Source of the DNA: a candidate division CPR3 bacterium GWF2_35_18
GTDB taxonomy: Bacteria > Patescibacteriota > CPR3 > GWF2-35-18
Direction: 5' to 3'
Assembly (NCBI GenBank): GCA_001771135.1
Contig: MESW01000010.1
Coordinates: 1 to 47,748, forward strand
DNA length: 47,748 bases
Made by a program: the position numbers and the translations under genes
Notes under the pieces: generated by a model
What the model saw: only the letters and a program-made list of their open reading frames with translations
The model's database searches: none
What the model was told of the DNA's origin: nothing
Part shown: positions 24,232-47,748 of the stretch, piece after piece
Position numbering within the stretch: the first letter of the stretch is position 1
How the letters are laid out: the number at the start of each line of letters is the position of its first letter

Positions 24232-26397
24232 ATGGCAGAAAAAATTATAAAAGAATTGGAGTTTGCAGGTAAACCACTTATAATTGAAACTGGTTTATTG
24301 GCACCCCAGGCAAATTGTGCTGTCAAAGTACAGTACGGAGAAACAGTGGTTTTAGTAACAGCGGTAGCTGGTTCAGTAAGAGAAGATTTGGGTTATTTCC
24401 CGCTATCTGTTGAATATGAAGAGAAGTATTATGCTGGAGGAAGAATTAGTAGCTCTCGATTTATCAAACGCGAGACAAGACCACAAGATGAAGCGATTTT
24501 GAAAGGCCGTCTTATTGATCGTTCCATTCGTCCATTATTTCCCAAAGATTATAAAAATGAAACGCAAGTTATCGTGACAGTGCTTTCCGTTGATAAAGAG
24601 AATGATCCGGATATTGTAGGTCTGATCGGAGCTTCGGCGGTGCTTTCACTGTCCAATATTCCTTGGAAAGGGCCAATTGCGGGAGTTAGAGTGGGTAAAA
24701 CTGAAACCGGTTATGTCTTAAATCCGGTTAATGGTGATTTGGAAAAATCAACTTTAGACCTCGTTGTTTCTGGTTCCAAAGAAAATATTCTGATGATTGA
24801 AGCTGGAGCCAAAGAGGTAAAAGAAGAAGAGCTTATTGAAGCTCTAAAGTTAGCTCAAACTGAAAATAGTAAAGTAATTACAGCTTTGGAAGAGTTTGTC
24901 AAAGAATCCGGTCAGGAAAAAATGACCTACGCGGTAGAAGAATTAAATACTGACGTGAAAAAGAGTATCCTTGATTTTATTAAAGAAAGTGCTAAAGATG
25001 AGCTTCTTTCTAAAGATCGGGTGGAAAGAGAATCGGCTTCAGGAGAATTTTTAGAAAAGATTTATCTTCAATTTGAAGGTAAATTACCTAAAGAAGACAT
25101 GAAAGAGATTTTTGAAGAAGAGATGAAAAGAATGATTCGGGAAAATATTGTGGAAAAAGATTTGCGTCCTGATGGTCGCGGATTGGAAGAAGTTCGACCT
25201 CTGACAATTCAGGTCGGGATTTTACCACGCACACACGGATCAGGTCTTTTTCAACGCGGTTTAACCCAGGTACTTTCTTTAGTGACTTTGGGCTCGACTT
25301 CTTTACAACAGCTAATTGAAAATATGGAAGGTGAAGAGAAAAAACGATACATGCATCATTATAATTTTCCTCCCTATTCCGTGGGAGAAGTAAATCGTCT
25401 CGGTCCTCCACCTCGCCGTAGTATTGGACACGGCGCTTTGGCGGAAAAATCTTTGATTCCAGTGATTCCTGATAAAGAACTTTTTCCCTATACTATTCGT
25501 GTGGTTTCTGAATGTTTGTCTTCAGCTGGTTCAACTTCAATGGGTTCGGTTTGTGGCTCAACAATCGCTTTGATGGATGCGGGTGTACCTTTGAAAAAAC
25601 CGGTTGCAGGTGTGGCGATGGGAGTCGTTTTTAAAGACGATAAATATAAAGTTTTAACCGATATTCAAGCTCTCGAAGATTTTTACGGCGATATGGATTT
25701 TAAAGTCGCCGGAACCGTCGATGGAATCACCGCCATTCAGCTTGATGTAAAAACTTTGAAATTAACTATCGATATTCTTGCTGAGGCATTAATGCAAGCA
25801 AAACGAGGACGTCTTTTTATTATGGAAAAGATGTTAGCGGTTATTGATAAGCCGCGAGCCACCTTATCCAAATATGCTCCAAAGGTTGAAGTGATTAAAA
25901 TTGATCCCAAAAAAATTGGTGAAGTTATCGGTCCGGGCGGTAAAGTTATTAATAAAATTATAGAGGAAACTCTTACTGAAATTGATATTGAAGAAGATGG
26001 ATCAGTAAATGTTTCTGGAGAAACCGTTGAGGGAATTAAAAAAGCGATTGCGATGATCGAAGGGATTGTTAAAGAGATTATGCCGGGAGAAATATATACC
26101 GGAAAAGTAGTCAAAATCATGGACTTTGGAGCAATTGTAGAACTGTTGCCCAAAAAATCAGGAATGGTACATATCTCTCAGATTACCGATCATCACTTAG
26201 ATAAAGTGGAAGATGCTTTGTCTTTGGGACAAGAAGTGACAGTCAAAGTTCGTGAAATTGATAATATGGGAAGAGTAAACTTGACAATGCGACTTACTGA
26301 CGCGAATAATGGAAGTAATGATGATCGTGGTCCACGTTCTCATGGAGGACAGAAAAGAGATAATTTTCGTCGACCCGATTTTAGAAAAAGAAATTAA
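24232..26397 (+). CDS. pnp: Polyribonucleotide nucleotidyltransferase (PNPase)
   Basis: Two RNase PH domains, KH (GEVIGPGGKVINKIIEET), S1 domain (GEIYTGKVVKIMDFGAIVEL). Confidence 0.97.
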   Translation: MAEKIIKELEFAGKPLIIETGLLAPQANCAVKVQYGETVVLVTAVAGSVREDLGYFPLSVEYEEKYYAGGRISSSRFIKRETRPQDEAILKGRLIDRSIRPLFPKDYKNETQVIVTVLSVDKENDPDIVGLIGASAVLSLSNIPWKGPIAGVRVGKTETGYVLNPVNGDLEKSTLDLVVSGSKENILMIEAGAKEVKEEELIEALKLAQTENSKVITALEEFVKESGQEKMTYAVEELNTDVKKSILDFIKESAKDELLSKDRVERESASGEFLEKIYLQFEGKLPKEDMKEIFEEEMKRMIRENIVEKDLRPDGRGLEEVRPLTIQVGILPRTHGSGLFQRGLTQVLSLVTLGSTSLQQLIENMEGEEKKRYMHHYNFPPYSVGEVNRLGPPPRRSIGHGALAEKSLIPVIPDKELFPYTIRVVSECLSSAGSTSMGSVCGSTIALMDAGVPLKKPVAGVAMGVVFKDDKYKVLTDIQALEDFYGDMDFKVAGTVDGITAIQLDVKTLKLTIDILAEALMQAKRGRLFIMEKMLAVIDKPRATLSKYAPKVEVIKIDPKKIGEVIGPGGKVINKIIEETLTEIDIEEDGSVNVSGETVEGIKKAIAMIEGIVKEIMPGEIYTGKVVKIMDFGAIVELLPKKSGMVHISQITDHHLDKVEDALSLGQEVTVKVREIDNMGRVNLTMRLTDANNGSNDDRGPRSHGGQKRDNFRRPDFRKRN

Positions 26398-27519
26398 ATG
26401 CCTATGAATACTGCCCCAAAATCTTTAAATACAGATTTAAAAGATGATAATTTCCTCTCACAAGAAGTAGATAAGCTGCAAAAACAGCTTGAAGAAGCAG
26501 TCATTCCACCGGAACTTAAAGAAAATGTACGTTTGATGATTCGACGTGTGGCCAATCTTTTTGGCTCTGCAGCTTATGCTTCTGAATATGAAAATGCTTC
26601 CTTATATCTTGATTGGGTAACTTGCCTGCCTTGGGATAGAAGATCAGAAGATAATCTTGATCTTGATCGTGCTCGGAAAATCCTTGATGTAAATCATTAT
26701 GGAATGGAACCGGTTAAAGAGAGAATTTTGGAATATTTAGCAGTTATAAATCTTCAAGATCGAAAACGAAAATTAAAAACCGAAGAGGAGAAAAAAGGTA
26801 AAGTTCATTTCCGAAATAACGTAATCTTTTTAGTGGGACTTCCTGGTATTGGTAAAACTTCAGTTGCCAAATCGGTAGCTGAAGCTTTAAATAAAGAATT
26901 TGTACGTATTCCTTTTGGAGGAATGGGTTCGGCCGTCATTTTAAGAGGTCAATCACGTGTATTTCCGGATGCGGAACCTGGACTAGTCATTAAAAGCTTG
27001 CGTCGAGCCAAAACGAAAAATCCACTAATTTTGCTTGATGAGATTGATCGTGTGGCTGATTCCGCGAGAGCTGAGATTATGGGAGTTTTACTGGAACTTC
27101 TTGATCCAGAGCAGAATAATGAATATCGGGATCATTTTATCGATTATCCTTTTGATCTTTCCGAGGCGATGTTTATTGCAACTGGAAATAATACCGGAGG
27201 TGTGGCGAATGCCGTTCTTGATCGTTTGGAAGTGATACAAATGCCTTCCTATACCGATCAGGAAAAGTTAGCAATCGCGAGAAACTATCTATTTCCAAAA
27301 GAGATGGCAAATGTAGGACTTTCGGAATCCGATCTTCAAATTGATGAAGATGTTTGGGTCGATATCATTCGTCCTCTTGGCTATGATGCGGGAGTGCGTA
27401 TGTTATCGCGTACAATTCAAGGTATCTGTCGAATTGTAGCCAAAAAAATCGTTTTAGGTGAAGGTAAAAGTTTTCGCGTGACTACTGAAAACGTGAAAGA
27501 GTATTTACCCAAGTGGTAA
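26398..27519 (+). CDS. Lon-like AAA+ ATPase lacking both the N-terminal substrate domain and the C-terminal protease domain
   Basis: LDWVTCLPWDRRSEDNLDLDRARKILDVNHYGMEPVKERILEYLAV, GLPGIGKTS, LILLDEIDRV, VLDRLEVIQMPSYTDQEK, DAGVRMLSRTI; ends at residue 373 without the Ser-Lys protease. Confidence 0.85.
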   Translation: MPMNTAPKSLNTDLKDDNFLSQEVDKLQKQLEEAVIPPELKENVRLMIRRVANLFGSAAYASEYENASLYLDWVTCLPWDRRSEDNLDLDRARKILDVNHYGMEPVKERILEYLAVINLQDRKRKLKTEEEKKGKVHFRNNVIFLVGLPGIGKTSVAKSVAEALNKEFVRIPFGGMGSAVILRGQSRVFPDAEPGLVIKSLRRAKTKNPLILLDEIDRVADSARAEIMGVLLELLDPEQNNEYRDHFIDYPFDLSEAMFIATGNNTGGVANAVLDRLEVIQMPSYTDQEKLAIARNYLFPKEMANVGLSESDLQIDEDVWVDIIRPLGYDAGVRMLSRTIQGICRIVAKKIVLGEGKSFRVTTENVKEYLPKW

Positions 27520-27550
27520 AAACTCTTTGTTAGTATAAGATTTTTTCTTT

Positions 27551-27576
27551 AAAACGCGAGCAGTTGCTCGCGTTTT
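27551..27576. terminator. Bidirectional intrinsic terminator
   Basis: AAAACGCGAGCA-gt-TGCTCGCGTTTT. Confidence 0.75.
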
Positions 27577-27600
27577 AATAGATTGAAAGTGTTTTAAATT

Positions 27601-29328
27601 ATGAATGAAATTATGAATAAAAAAATAGAAAATGATGTTAAAGATATAAGTTCAAATAAATATCACGAAAGTATCTCTTTAAAGAAAATCCTGAAAATAA
27701 TCCCTCTTGGTGGAGCCGGAATGGTAACCAAGAATATGTGGATTTATGAATATGGAGAAGATATTTTGATTATAGATTGCGGAATGGGTTTTCCTGATGA
27801 AGATATGTTGGGAGTGGATATGGTAATTCCTGATATCTCATACTTACGGGAAAGAGCTTCTCGAATAAAAGGAATGTTTTTAACTCATGGTCATGAAGAT
27901 CATATAGGAGCAGTACCTTACGTTCTAAAAGAATTATCGATTCCGCTTTATGGTTCCAAATTAACTTTGGGATTAGTAAGAGCAAAACTTCAAGAATATG
28001 AGATGGACAAGGGAGTTATTTTTAATGTCATTGAGTCTGACGATAAAATAAAAATTGGCAATTTTGATTTGGAATTTGTACATCTTGCACATTCTGTTCC
28101 AGACCATTTAGGGGTAATAATAAAAATTCCAGAAGGAAAGATTTTGCATGCTCCTGATTACAAATTTGACTGGACTCCGGTAGACGGTAAACCAACTGAA
28201 GTACACAAATTAGCCAAACTGCGCGGGGAACTTCTTCTACTGCTTTCTGATTGTGTGAGAATTGAAAAAGATGGTTATACTCTAACAGAGAGAGCTATTG
28301 AAGAGACTTTTGAAAAAGAGATGCAAAAGGCTAAGGGAAGAGTTCTAATTACCACTTTTTCTTCAAATATTTCCAGATTACAACAAGCTATAAATGCTGC
28401 CCAAAAATATCATCGGAAGATTGCCTTTGTAGGTAGAAGTATTTATCGCAACATGGAAGTGGCGCAGCAACTGAATTATCTTTCTTTTCCCAGAGATACT
28501 GTAATTGAGCCTAAGGAAATTAAAAAATATAATCCAGATGAACTGGTGATTTTAATTTCTGGTAGTCAAGGTCAATCCAATTCAGCTTTAGCTCGAGTTG
28601 CCAACGATGATCACCCGATGGTACAGATTCAAGAAGGAGATGTGGTGATTTTTGCTTCTGATCCGATTCCGGGAAATCTGGATTCTGTTTACAAAGTTAT
28701 TGATCAGCTTTCAGAAAGAGGTGCCGAAGTTCGATACAGTGAGATTACTGATGATGTTCATGTCTCAGGACATGCGGCTAAGGAGGAGCTGAAATTTATG
28801 CTTGGTCTGACGCTGCCGAAGTTTTTAGTGCCGATTGGAGGCGAAATTCGACACGGCAAAATGTTTGCCGGAATCGCCAAGGATATGGGAATTCAAGAGA
28901 CTTTGATTATGAAAGAGGGAGATACTTTAAGAATTGAAAATGGGAATTGTAAATTAGGAGAGCGGATAAAAACTTCTGAAGTGATGATTGACGGAGCCGA
29001 TCTTGAGAATATTCAAGATATTGTAATTCGTGATCGCCAGGTCCTTTCTAAAGATGGAATATTTCTAGTAGTTGTGACTATTGATAAAAACGCGAAAACC
29101 TTGATTTCTGAACCAGAGGTTGTTTCGCGCGGTTTTGTCTATATGAAAGAGGCCGATAAAATCTTGGACGATACAAGATCAATCGTGATTCAAACGATTA
29201 AAGGAAAAATCCACGAAGACAGTGATCCAAAGTTTTTACGTCGACAGCTCATCACTGCTTTAGAGAGATATATCTATAAGCAAACAGAGATGAGACCGAT
29301 GATTTTACCGGTTATTATTACGGTCTAA
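27601..29328 (+). CDS. rnj: Ribonuclease J
   Basis: LTHGHEDHIGAVPYVL, SVPDHLGVIIK, VSGHAAKEELKFML; metallo-beta-lactamase/beta-CASP. Confidence 0.95.
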   Translation: MNEIMNKKIENDVKDISSNKYHESISLKKILKIIPLGGAGMVTKNMWIYEYGEDILIIDCGMGFPDEDMLGVDMVIPDISYLRERASRIKGMFLTHGHEDHIGAVPYVLKELSIPLYGSKLTLGLVRAKLQEYEMDKGVIFNVIESDDKIKIGNFDLEFVHLAHSVPDHLGVIIKIPEGKILHAPDYKFDWTPVDGKPTEVHKLAKLRGELLLLLSDCVRIEKDGYTLTERAIEETFEKEMQKAKGRVLITTFSSNISRLQQAINAAQKYHRKIAFVGRSIYRNMEVAQQLNYLSFPRDTVIEPKEIKKYNPDELVILISGSQGQSNSALARVANDDHPMVQIQEGDVVIFASDPIPGNLDSVYKVIDQLSERGAEVRYSEITDDVHVSGHAAKEELKFMLGLTLPKFLVPIGGEIRHGKMFAGIAKDMGIQETLIMKEGDTLRIENGNCKLGERIKTSEVMIDGADLENIQDIVIRDRQVLSKDGIFLVVVTIDKNAKTLISEPEVVSRGFVYMKEADKILDDTRSIVIQTIKGKIHEDSDPKFLRRQLITALERYIYKQTEMRPMILPVIITV

Positions 29329-45155: not shown

Positions 45156-45214
45156 GTTTTTATATTTAGTCTGAATTGCATCTTGTAAAGCAAAATGTTA
45201 TCTTAAATATTGAA

Positions 45215-47748
45215 ATGCCCAAATTATTTAAAAAAACTTCTGTTTTCATATTATCTTTTGCTTTGTTATCTTTAAATATCAGTTCTTCATTTATTCAGAA
45301 CAAAATTATCCAAGTTAATGCGATTAATGAAACTAGTACTCCGGCAACTATAGTAGTCGGACAAAGTGGATTTAGCAGTTGTGATGGTAGCCCGAATCAA
45401 GGGAATCCAGAAAAGGGTTTTTTTAACGCAGTGGGAAGTATGATTGCTGGAAATAGGTTATATGTATCGGATTACGGTAGTCACCGAATTTTAATTTATA
45501 ATACGATTCCGACTTCAAATTATACTTCACCTGATGTAGTTATTGGACAACAAAATTTCTGTGATCGTAGTCAAAATCAAGGTGGTTTAGTGACAGCTTC
45601 AACTCTCTTTTATCCATGGGGAGTCTTTTCTGACGGTAACAAGTTATTCATAGTAGACCGTTCCAATCACCGTGTTCTTATTTACAATACTATCCCGACT
45701 TCTAATAATGCTTCTGCTGATGTTGTAGTTGGTCAGCCTGATATGAGTAGTAATACTGTGAATAATGGTGGTATAAGCGCTAGTACTCTGAATTATCCGA
45801 ACGGTGTTTTTTATGATGGATCTAAATTGTATATTTCTGATAGTGGAAACCATAGAGTGCTTATATATAATGCTTTACCAACTTCAAATGGAATAAGCGC
45901 GGATGTAGTTGTAGGTCAACCTAACATGACTAGTGGAACTGCTAATAATGGCGGAATTAACGCAAATACTTTAAATGCGCCTTCTGGAATATATTCTAAT
46001 GGTACAAAATTATTGGTTTCAGACAACAGCAACCATCGTGTTTTAATTTATAACACCATTCCAACTAGTAATAATACCTCTGCGGATGTAGTTGTAGGTC
46101 AACCTAACATGACTAGTGGAACTGCTAATAATGGTGGTATTAATACAAATACACTTAATTCCCCACAATCAATTTTTTCTAATGGTACTAAGTTATCTAT
46201 AGCTGATAGAGGTAATCATCGAGTATTAATATTTAATACAATTCCGAATTCCAATAATGCAAGTGCTGATGTAGTTGTCGGACAACCTAATATGACTAGC
46301 AGTACTGTAAATAACGGAGGTATCGGAGCAAATACTTTAAATGGTCCATATAATACTTTTATAAATGATTCCAAAATGGTAATTGTTGATGTATTTAATC
46401 AGAGAGTACTAATATTTAATACGATTCCGAATTCCAATAATGCAAGTGCAGACGTAGTTGTAGGTCAGTTAAATATGACTAATAATATATATTATGGGTC
46501 TTTAGGTCCTGATTCGAATACACTTTCAACTCCTTTTAATGTTAATGCTTATAATAATAAACTTTTTATTGCTGATCGAAATAATAATCGAGTTTTAATA
46601 TATAATACTTTGCCGAATTCCAATAACGCTAATGCAGATGTGGTTGTAGGACAGCAAAATTTTACAAGTGGTAGTATTAATCAGGGAGGATCAGTAGCAG
46701 CAAATACATTAAATAGTCCAAATGGGGTTTTTTATGATGGGAACAAATTGTTTATTAGTGAATACAATAACCATCGAATTCTAATTTATAATAATTTACC
46801 AACTTCCAATAATGCAAGTGCAGACGTAGTTGTAGGTCAACCTAATATGACTTCTGGAACTGCTAATAATGGGGGAAGGAATGCAAATACTTTAAACCAA
46901 CCACATCATATATATTCTGACGGTATAAGACTTTATGTGGCAGATTATAATAATCATAGAGTTTTAATTTATAACACCATTCCAACGAGTAATAATACTT
47001 CTGCAGATGTAGTTGTAGGTCAACCTAATATGACTTCTGGAACTGCTAATAATGGTGGAATCGGAGCAAATACAATTAATCGTCCGTTAGGGGTTTGTGC
47101 TGTCGGTGGTAAGTTCTTTGTGGCGGATACCAACAATAATAGAGTTTTAATTTATAACACAATTCCAACTAGTAATAGTACCTCTGCAGATGTAGTTGTA
47201 GGTCAACCTAATATGACTAGTAATAGTATTAATCAGGGAGGATCAGTAGCAGCAAATACATTATACATGCCATATGGTGTCTACTCGGATGGTACAAGAT
47301 TATACATAGCAGATTCATACAATAATCGAATACTAATCTATAACAATATCCCTACTTCTAATGATGCAGTAGCAGATATTGTTGTTGGACAGCCAGCTAT
47401 GACGACTAATATAGCTAATAACGGAGAATCTGAAAACAGTCAAAGAATTAGTAATCCTGCTGCTGTTTATTCTGATGGAAGTAATTTATATATTTCAGAT
47501 AGGGGTAATGAACGCGTATTAATCTATCCTCTCGGTCCTCAGAATGACAGTATGAGTACTCCAAGCTTCAGTAACAGTGAAACTATTAATATCACCTTAA
47601 CAGCGGATGATGCTAAAGAAGTAATGATCTCCGAGGATAATAGTTTTACGGGAGCAACATGGGAAACATACTCAAACAGTAAGGAATATACCTTAAGTAA
47701 TACAACTGAAGGAACAAAGACAATCTATGTAAAGATGAGAGATTACGC
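45215..47748 (+). CDS. Secreted NHL/beta-propeller repeat protein, 3' truncated by the window
   Basis: Open frame from ATG 45215 (MPKLFKKTSVFILSFALLSLNISSSF signal peptide) to the window end; 12 copies of a [A]DVVVGQPNMTSGTANNGGINANTLN-P-G-Y-DG-KLYISD-NNHRVLIYNTIPTSNNTS unit, then an Ig-like segment. Absent from the ORF track because it has no stop in the window. Confidence 0.85.
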   Translation, partial: MPKLFKKTSVFILSFALLSLNISSSFIQNKIIQVNAINETSTPATIVVGQSGFSSCDGSPNQGNPEKGFFNAVGSMIAGNRLYVSDYGSHRILIYNTIPTSNYTSPDVVIGQQNFCDRSQNQGGLVTASTLFYPWGVFSDGNKLFIVDRSNHRVLIYNTIPTSNNASADVVVGQPDMSSNTVNNGGISASTLNYPNGVFYDGSKLYISDSGNHRVLIYNALPTSNGISADVVVGQPNMTSGTANNGGINANTLNAPSGIYSNGTKLLVSDNSNHRVLIYNTIPTSNNTSADVVVGQPNMTSGTANNGGINTNTLNSPQSIFSNGTKLSIADRGNHRVLIFNTIPNSNNASADVVVGQPNMTSSTVNNGGIGANTLNGPYNTFINDSKMVIVDVFNQRVLIFNTIPNSNNASADVVVGQLNMTNNIYYGSLGPDSNTLSTPFNVNAYNNKLFIADRNNNRVLIYNTLPNSNNANADVVVGQQNFTSGSINQGGSVAANTLNSPNGVFYDGNKLFISEYNNHRILIYNNLPTSNNASADVVVGQPNMTSGTANNGGRNANTLNQPHHIYSDGIRLYVADYNNHRVLIYNTIPTSNNTSADVVVGQPNMTSGTANNGGIGANTINRPLGVCAVGGKFFVADTNNNRVLIYNTIPTSNSTSADVVVGQPNMTSNSINQGGSVAANTLYMPYGVYSDGTRLYIADSYNNRILIYNNIPTSNDAVADIVVGQPAMTTNIANNGESENSQRISNPAAVYSDGSNLYISDRGNERVLIYPLGPQNDSMSTPSFSNSETINITLTADDAKEVMISEDNSFTGATWETYSNSKEYTLSNTTEGTKTIYVKMRDY
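45342..47531 (+). repeat. Tandem ~183-bp coding repeats (about 12 units)
   Basis: Recurrent near-identical blocks such as gcagatgtagttgtaggtcaacctaatatgact...ggaactgctaataatgg. Confidence 0.85.

Follow-up and report, generated by a model that had tools for sequence, protein, structure and literature searches.

We observed that the gene at positions 26398-27519 (+ strand) of the window, by which we mean the whole 47 748-nt stretch analysed (contig MESW01000010.1 of the candidate division CPR3 bacterium GWF2_35_18), encodes a stand-alone, protease-less Lon-type AAA+ ATPase of 373 aa. We refer to this gene, its product and its homologues as X. Judged from its sequence, X works on the Lon chassis and is not a Lon protease, because it lacks the protease, the N-domain and the pore grip of Lon and falls below the curated cut-off for the Lon family. 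The reading that we favour, holding it with even confidence, is that X represents a Patescibacteria-specific family of Lon-related AAA+ proteins and would act as an ATP-driven remodeller or switch of a partner, for which the RNA-decay/translation cluster is a first, weakly supported guess.

The ORF of X is intact. Pfam searches of the protein gave matches to AAA (2.2e-18) and Lon_lid (2.3e-11), the remaining matches being only to generic AAA-type families; no match to Lon_C, the Ser-Lys protease, was found in Pfam, and no match to the Lon N-domain was found in Pfam or NCBIfam. Against the lon model TIGR00763, X scored 347 bits, short of the curated NCBIfam cut-off of 608 bits; the aligned part spans positions 251-570 of the 795 in the model. 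It is likely that automatic annotation mislabels X as Lon protease. The alignment to E. coli Lon runs from residue ~237 to residue ~582, and the stop codon of X coincides with the boundary between the ATPase and the protease of Lon (~E. coli residue 582). Among solved structures, the top matches by sequence were Lon AAA+ modules; identity to LonA is about 35-45%. The AlphaFold2 model of X has the Lon AAA+ fold (mean pLDDT 90.5) and its top Foldseek matches were all Lon, with TMt of 0.90 to the Lon AAA+ domain 6n2i and TM by query of 0.72-0.83 for the LONP1 and E. coli Lon AAA+ structures (7krz, 7p0b, 6n2i). The folds of these human and E. coli modules are like that of X, and X ends where their protease begins.

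These results bear out the initial annotation, made from the sequence alone, in its description of a stand-alone Lon-type module with neither protease nor N-domain. It had also placed the beginning of the protein in the Lon linker at LDWVTCLPWDRR. The linker is indeed kept; the start point is not there, as LDWVTCLPWDRR occupies residues 71-82 and is preceded by a stretch of ~60 residues from the helical segment of Lon. The N-terminal part (residues 12-76; 26431-26625, + strand), with helices predicted by AlphaFold2 at residues 12-33, 38-53 and 60-76 and with the alignment to E. coli Lon starting at ~237, is what is left of the helical/linker region of Lon; the actual N-domain is missing. No coding remnant of a protease was found in the 81 bp between the X stop codon and the downstream gene rnj; a strong hairpin is present there instead. 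As only these 81 bp separate the two genes and they make up the hairpin, a frameshift remnant is excluded, in agreement with what had been claimed.

Conservation of residues was assessed by comparing 83 X sequences with 12 Lon sequences. The catalytic residues of the ATPase are invariant (83/83) in X: K153 (E. coli K362) of the Walker A motif GLPGIGKT (residues 147-154; 26836-26859), D214 and E215 (E. coli D423/E424) of the Walker B motif LILLDE (residues 210-215; 27025-27042), sensor 1 N264 (E. coli N473; 27187-27189), the arginine finger R276 (E. coli R484; 27223-27225) and sensor 2 R334 (E. coli R542), which is located in the Lon lid subdomain (27247-27516); all of these features are on the + strand. 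Thus, the Walker A and B and arginine-finger-like motifs noticed initially are confirmed, along with both sensors. The lid also carries residues specific to X, namely W320 (81/83), P326 (82/83), G328 (80/83), N365 (82/83) and D330.

Could X be a Lon pseudogene in decay? We consider the probability of this negligible. One genome, G028, does have X split into two overlapping frames (G028:C1:555265-556294). This explanation is ruled out by the intact ORFs, by the 83 sequences with the same boundaries and by low dN/dS; an alignment of 31 X sequences has 35 invariant columns. The dN/dS values in close X pairs, about 0.05-0.13 (approximate, as synonymous sites are near saturation), indicate purifying selection. 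As to the split gene in G028, its genus mate G006 has an intact X, and the split could be either a frameshift or a sequencing error.

The part of the motor that does differ from Lon is the substrate grip. It was known that the substrate of Lon is held by the tyrosine of pore loop 1 together with the hydrophobic residue next to it, and that the Y565A or Y599A mutation in LONP1 lowers degradation (PMC8163871, PMC8913295). In X, pore loop 1 (RGQSRVFPDAEPG, residues 183-195; 26944-26982, + strand) has lost the Tyr398-Ile399 grip. The Tyr398 position, occupied by Tyr in 12/12 Lon sequences, has in X 17 F, 9 N, 8 H, 8 L and many other residues, with an entropy across X of 3.65 bits; the pair of an aromatic and an aliphatic residue (Tyr followed by Ile/Val in Lon) is present in 12/12 Lon sequences versus 2/83 of X. 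Lon Met/Leu402 is replaced by a glutamate (Met402 by Glu193 in the window's X) in 81/83 sequences, so that the loop reads as an acidic [AS]-E-P-G; the mean net charge of residues 188-196 is -1.75 in X versus +1.0 in Lon. In the pore loop 2 region (residues 219-228; 27052-27081, + strand) the aromatic residue of Patescibacteria Lon is absent, F/Y being found in 11/12 Lon sequences versus 1/83 of X. The early observation that the window's loop reads RVFPDAEPG instead of the Lon consensus therefore stands, the loss being family-wide, and the segment does differ as supposed, the aromatic-hydrophobic grip having gone in 81/83 sequences. All in all, X is predicted to be a living ATPase whose threading element of the Lon type has been taken apart.

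The unfoldase function proposed initially becomes doubtful for this very reason, as the grip that Lon needs for threading is gone in 81/83 sequences. In a broader form, X would be a protease-less unfoldase or disaggregase threading its substrates by means of the unusual acidic pore loop. The complete motor and the Lon ancestry agree with such a role, and an aromatic residue is retained at the Tyr398 position in 23/83 sequences, so some threading may remain in a part of the family. Still, with the aromatic-aliphatic pair surviving in only two sequences, with the Tyr position so variable and with the substrate-capturing N-domain absent, we regard this role as possible but unlikely.

The genome to which the window belongs (1.14 Mb, 97% complete) has a separate full-length lon gene, located at G000:C3 and encoding 781 aa; the check for such a gene elsewhere in the genome, suggested initially, thus gave a positive answer. 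In a Lon_C search of this genome the true domain was found only in the 781-aa lon, along with two further weak, short partial matches in 470- and 515-aa frames. Since the only true Lon_C sits in the full-length gene, a split Lon with X as one half is ruled out; with no protease remnant downstream, so is a frameshifted Lon.

A partnership with a protease encoded elsewhere is another matter. X could be the motor of a two-component protease, acting with ClpP, HslV or a stand-alone Lon protease domain, or within mixed hexamers with Lon. X retains the Lon motor; 36 of the 104 genomes with X also have a full-length Lon, the window's genome included; and ClpP is common in the phylum, while no ClpX above cut-off was found in any of the 46 sampled genomes (46/46). 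Such a role is at odds with the lost pore grip, with the 57 X genomes that have no Lon and with the lack of any stand-alone Lon_C in the 16 X genomes searched; HslV was found in 0/30 genomes. ClpP was not found in the window's genome (G000), nor in G158, G139, G187, G033 and G313. Four of these six genomes have Lon. In the other two, G033 and G313 (95-98% completeness), X is present and Lon, ClpP and HslV were all not found; hence to call X the motor of a split protease would be too simple, and as a general rule the role of a motor for ClpP, HslV or Lon is ruled out. A general protease partnership is unlikely, and we give the two-component reading little probability. Genomes with neither ClpP nor a ClpX above cut-off have, in themselves, an unusual proteolysis repertoire.

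In a survey of 381 sampled Patescibacteria genomes, with stand-alone homologues defined as those of about 340-510 aa, X was listed in 104 genomes: 57 without full-length Lon, 36 with a listed full-length Lon and 11 undecided. A listed Lon with no listed X was found in 10 genomes, one of which is G028 with its split X. Among the Patescibacteria genomes sampled, X is commoner than full-length Lon. We also scanned GTDB contigs with the X profile and considered the best 80 matches listed. The best 17 of the 80 were all stand-alone; among these listed matches 16 carry CPR/Patescibacteria titles (Shapiro-, Ames-, Levy-, Davies-, Gottesman-, Roizmanbacteria, WWE3 or Patescibacteria group) and one is titled only 'bacterium'. 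The other 63 of the matches listed were full-length Lons of other bacteria, extending 142-281 residues beyond the match. By these searches, and among the matches listed, the X family has so far been seen only in Patescibacteria (CPR), though a few members may exist in other lineages. A virus origin of X was considered and rejected, as 80/80 of the relatives kept from viral contigs were full-length Lon; 79 of these fit the canonical loop pattern and the remaining one reads YIGSMVG. The 11 matches in phage records had <45% identity. No earlier paper on such a family was found in the open literature, subscription journals aside, and in the main text of the Tn-seq paper on S. epibionticum neither Lon nor AAA is named.

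A phylogeny of the AAA domain, also called for at the outset, was built from 38 X and 30 Lon sequences (11 from Patescibacteria and 19 others). In this unrooted tree X is monophyletic, its own clade apart from every sampled Lon, with a branch supported at 100/100 and all 30 Lon sequences on the other side. X sequences from Lon-bearing genomes did not group with the Lon of their own genome. Together, these two observations argue for a single ancient origin of X, and not for repeated truncation of resident Lon genes. X shares its ancestry with the Lon motor; a sister of Lon and a derivative of Lon both fit the unrooted topology.

In the window, X is preceded by pnp (PNPase; 24232-26397, + strand; Pfam RNase_PH, KH and S1), whose TAA stop abuts the X ATG, and followed by rnj (RNase J; 27601-29328, + strand; Pfam RNase_J_b_CASP and RNase_J_C). 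The hairpin between X and rnj (AAAACGCGAGC...GCTCGCGTTTT; 27549-27578, + strand) is terminator-like, with an MFE of -23.6 kcal/mol and a z of -5.77 for 27535-27600, and is not listed by a simple terminator scan. Its location 3′ of X suggests that the pnp transcript of this genome ends with X as its last gene. The window ends within a large ORF (45176-47746), which consists of repeated VVGQPNMTS...LIYNTIP units that look NHL-like by eye.

To count linkage, genes within 2.5 kb and on the same strand were considered at 83 X loci from 38 families. The recurrent order is nusA-infB-rpsO-pnp-X-[UDG4]-rnj-ftsK; pnp upstream together with rnj downstream was observed at 40/83 loci, in 18/38 families. 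In the X tree as drawn, the branches on either side of the deepest split have kept the pnp-X-rnj arrangement, which suggests that X came to lie between pnp and rnj early on. At 19/83 loci none of pnp, UDG4 and rnj accompanies X. In family f19 (L117, L122, L124, L125, L130, L136, L138 and L140), where X is not at pnp/rnj, it adjoins a convergent cluster resembling VirB4/PrgI-type secretion genes (named by eye). A ~310-aa uncharacterised protein is often encoded between pnp and X (L063, L086, L090, L097, L101, L107 and others); in L107 it has a zinc-ribbon-like start followed by a hydrophobic segment.

From the position between pnp and rnj a role in the RNA degradosome had been suggested. The position itself recurs as counted above; the inference from it is weakly supported. 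The order pnp-[UDG4]-rnj-ftsK is the ordinary one in Patescibacteria and is also present without X, e.g. rpsO-pnp-UDG4-rnj-ftsK in L225, L230 and L232; pnp and rnj are near-universal (63/63 and 61/63 genomes). As the same cluster exists in X-less genomes, it is independent of X, and in several lineages X is found outside it; a place next to these genes therefore argues only weakly for a function in RNA decay, and the case for a degradosome role from synteny alone is weakened.

The linkage of X to UDG4 is nearly as strong as its linkage to pnp or rnj. X might thus be tied to the family-4-like uracil-DNA glycosylase and take part in DNA repair or nucleic-acid remodelling, not in RNA decay. A UDG-superfamily gene lies immediately downstream of X at 28/83 loci and within 2.5 kb downstream at 35/83; X and UDG4 occur together without rnj in family f78 and others. 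However, UDG4 is located between pnp and rnj in X-less genomes too, no UDG4 adjoins X in the window, and the acidic pore-loop segment is unfavourable for threading nucleic acid. We therefore consider this function distinctly unlikely. In the f78 loci (L092, L099, L103, L105 and L106), X is directly upstream of the uracil-DNA-glycosylase gene and rnj has moved away.

Returning to the remodeller or switch that we favour, X would assemble into a ring; as the invariant arginine finger acts in trans, this ring is probably a hexamer. Much of the oligomer contact in Lon may come from domains that X has lost. The ring would hydrolyse ATP, and the resulting conformational cycle could remodel or switch a bound partner without passing a polypeptide through the pore hand over hand, and the acidic [AS]EPG loop may serve as a new contact site. 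The partner would most likely come from the RNA-decay/translation cluster, i.e. PNPase, RNase J or a target of these enzymes, an assignment that is weakly supported. If one had to guess, proteins of RNA decay and translation would rank first and UDG4-linked work on nucleic acids second. One could speculate further that X founds a novel type of AAA+ machine, in which a non-threading, Lon-derived ring, by means of its acidic pore and ATP cycling, drives RNA decay or maturation by RNase J and PNPase in Patescibacteria and takes the part played by helicase motors in known degradosomes; to this version we give only a small chance.

X shares with LonA (TIGR00763, MEROPS S16) the AAA+ core, the lid, the Walker, sensor and arginine-finger residues and the tail of the helical linker; it differs in having no N-domain, no Ser-Lys protease and no Tyr-Ile/Val grip, in its acidic EPG loop and in forming a separate clade. 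The LonC or Lon-like protease of Meiothermus, which retains the protease and has no functional AAA+ motifs (PMC3391209), is, like X, a Lon relative missing half of the machine; the two are mirror images, with the protease only in LonC and the ATPase only in X. BrxL of BREX systems is an AAA+ protein that has been likened to Lon and described as binding DNA in an ATP-dependent manner (PMC10164562); by this description it is set apart from X, BrxL being a distinct defence factor and X lying among housekeeping genes.

The Lons of the literature cited here carry the ATPase and the protease in one chain or, as LonC, the protease only, while X is the motor only. The X family may be seen as a natural separation-of-function experiment, in which the ATPase residues were frozen and the grip loop was freed from constraint. 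Patescibacteria genomes are reduced, so every conserved gene of unknown role in them is informative; X is probably a repurposed molecular machine that has kept the ATP motor and lost both the cutting of proteins and the usual grip on them.
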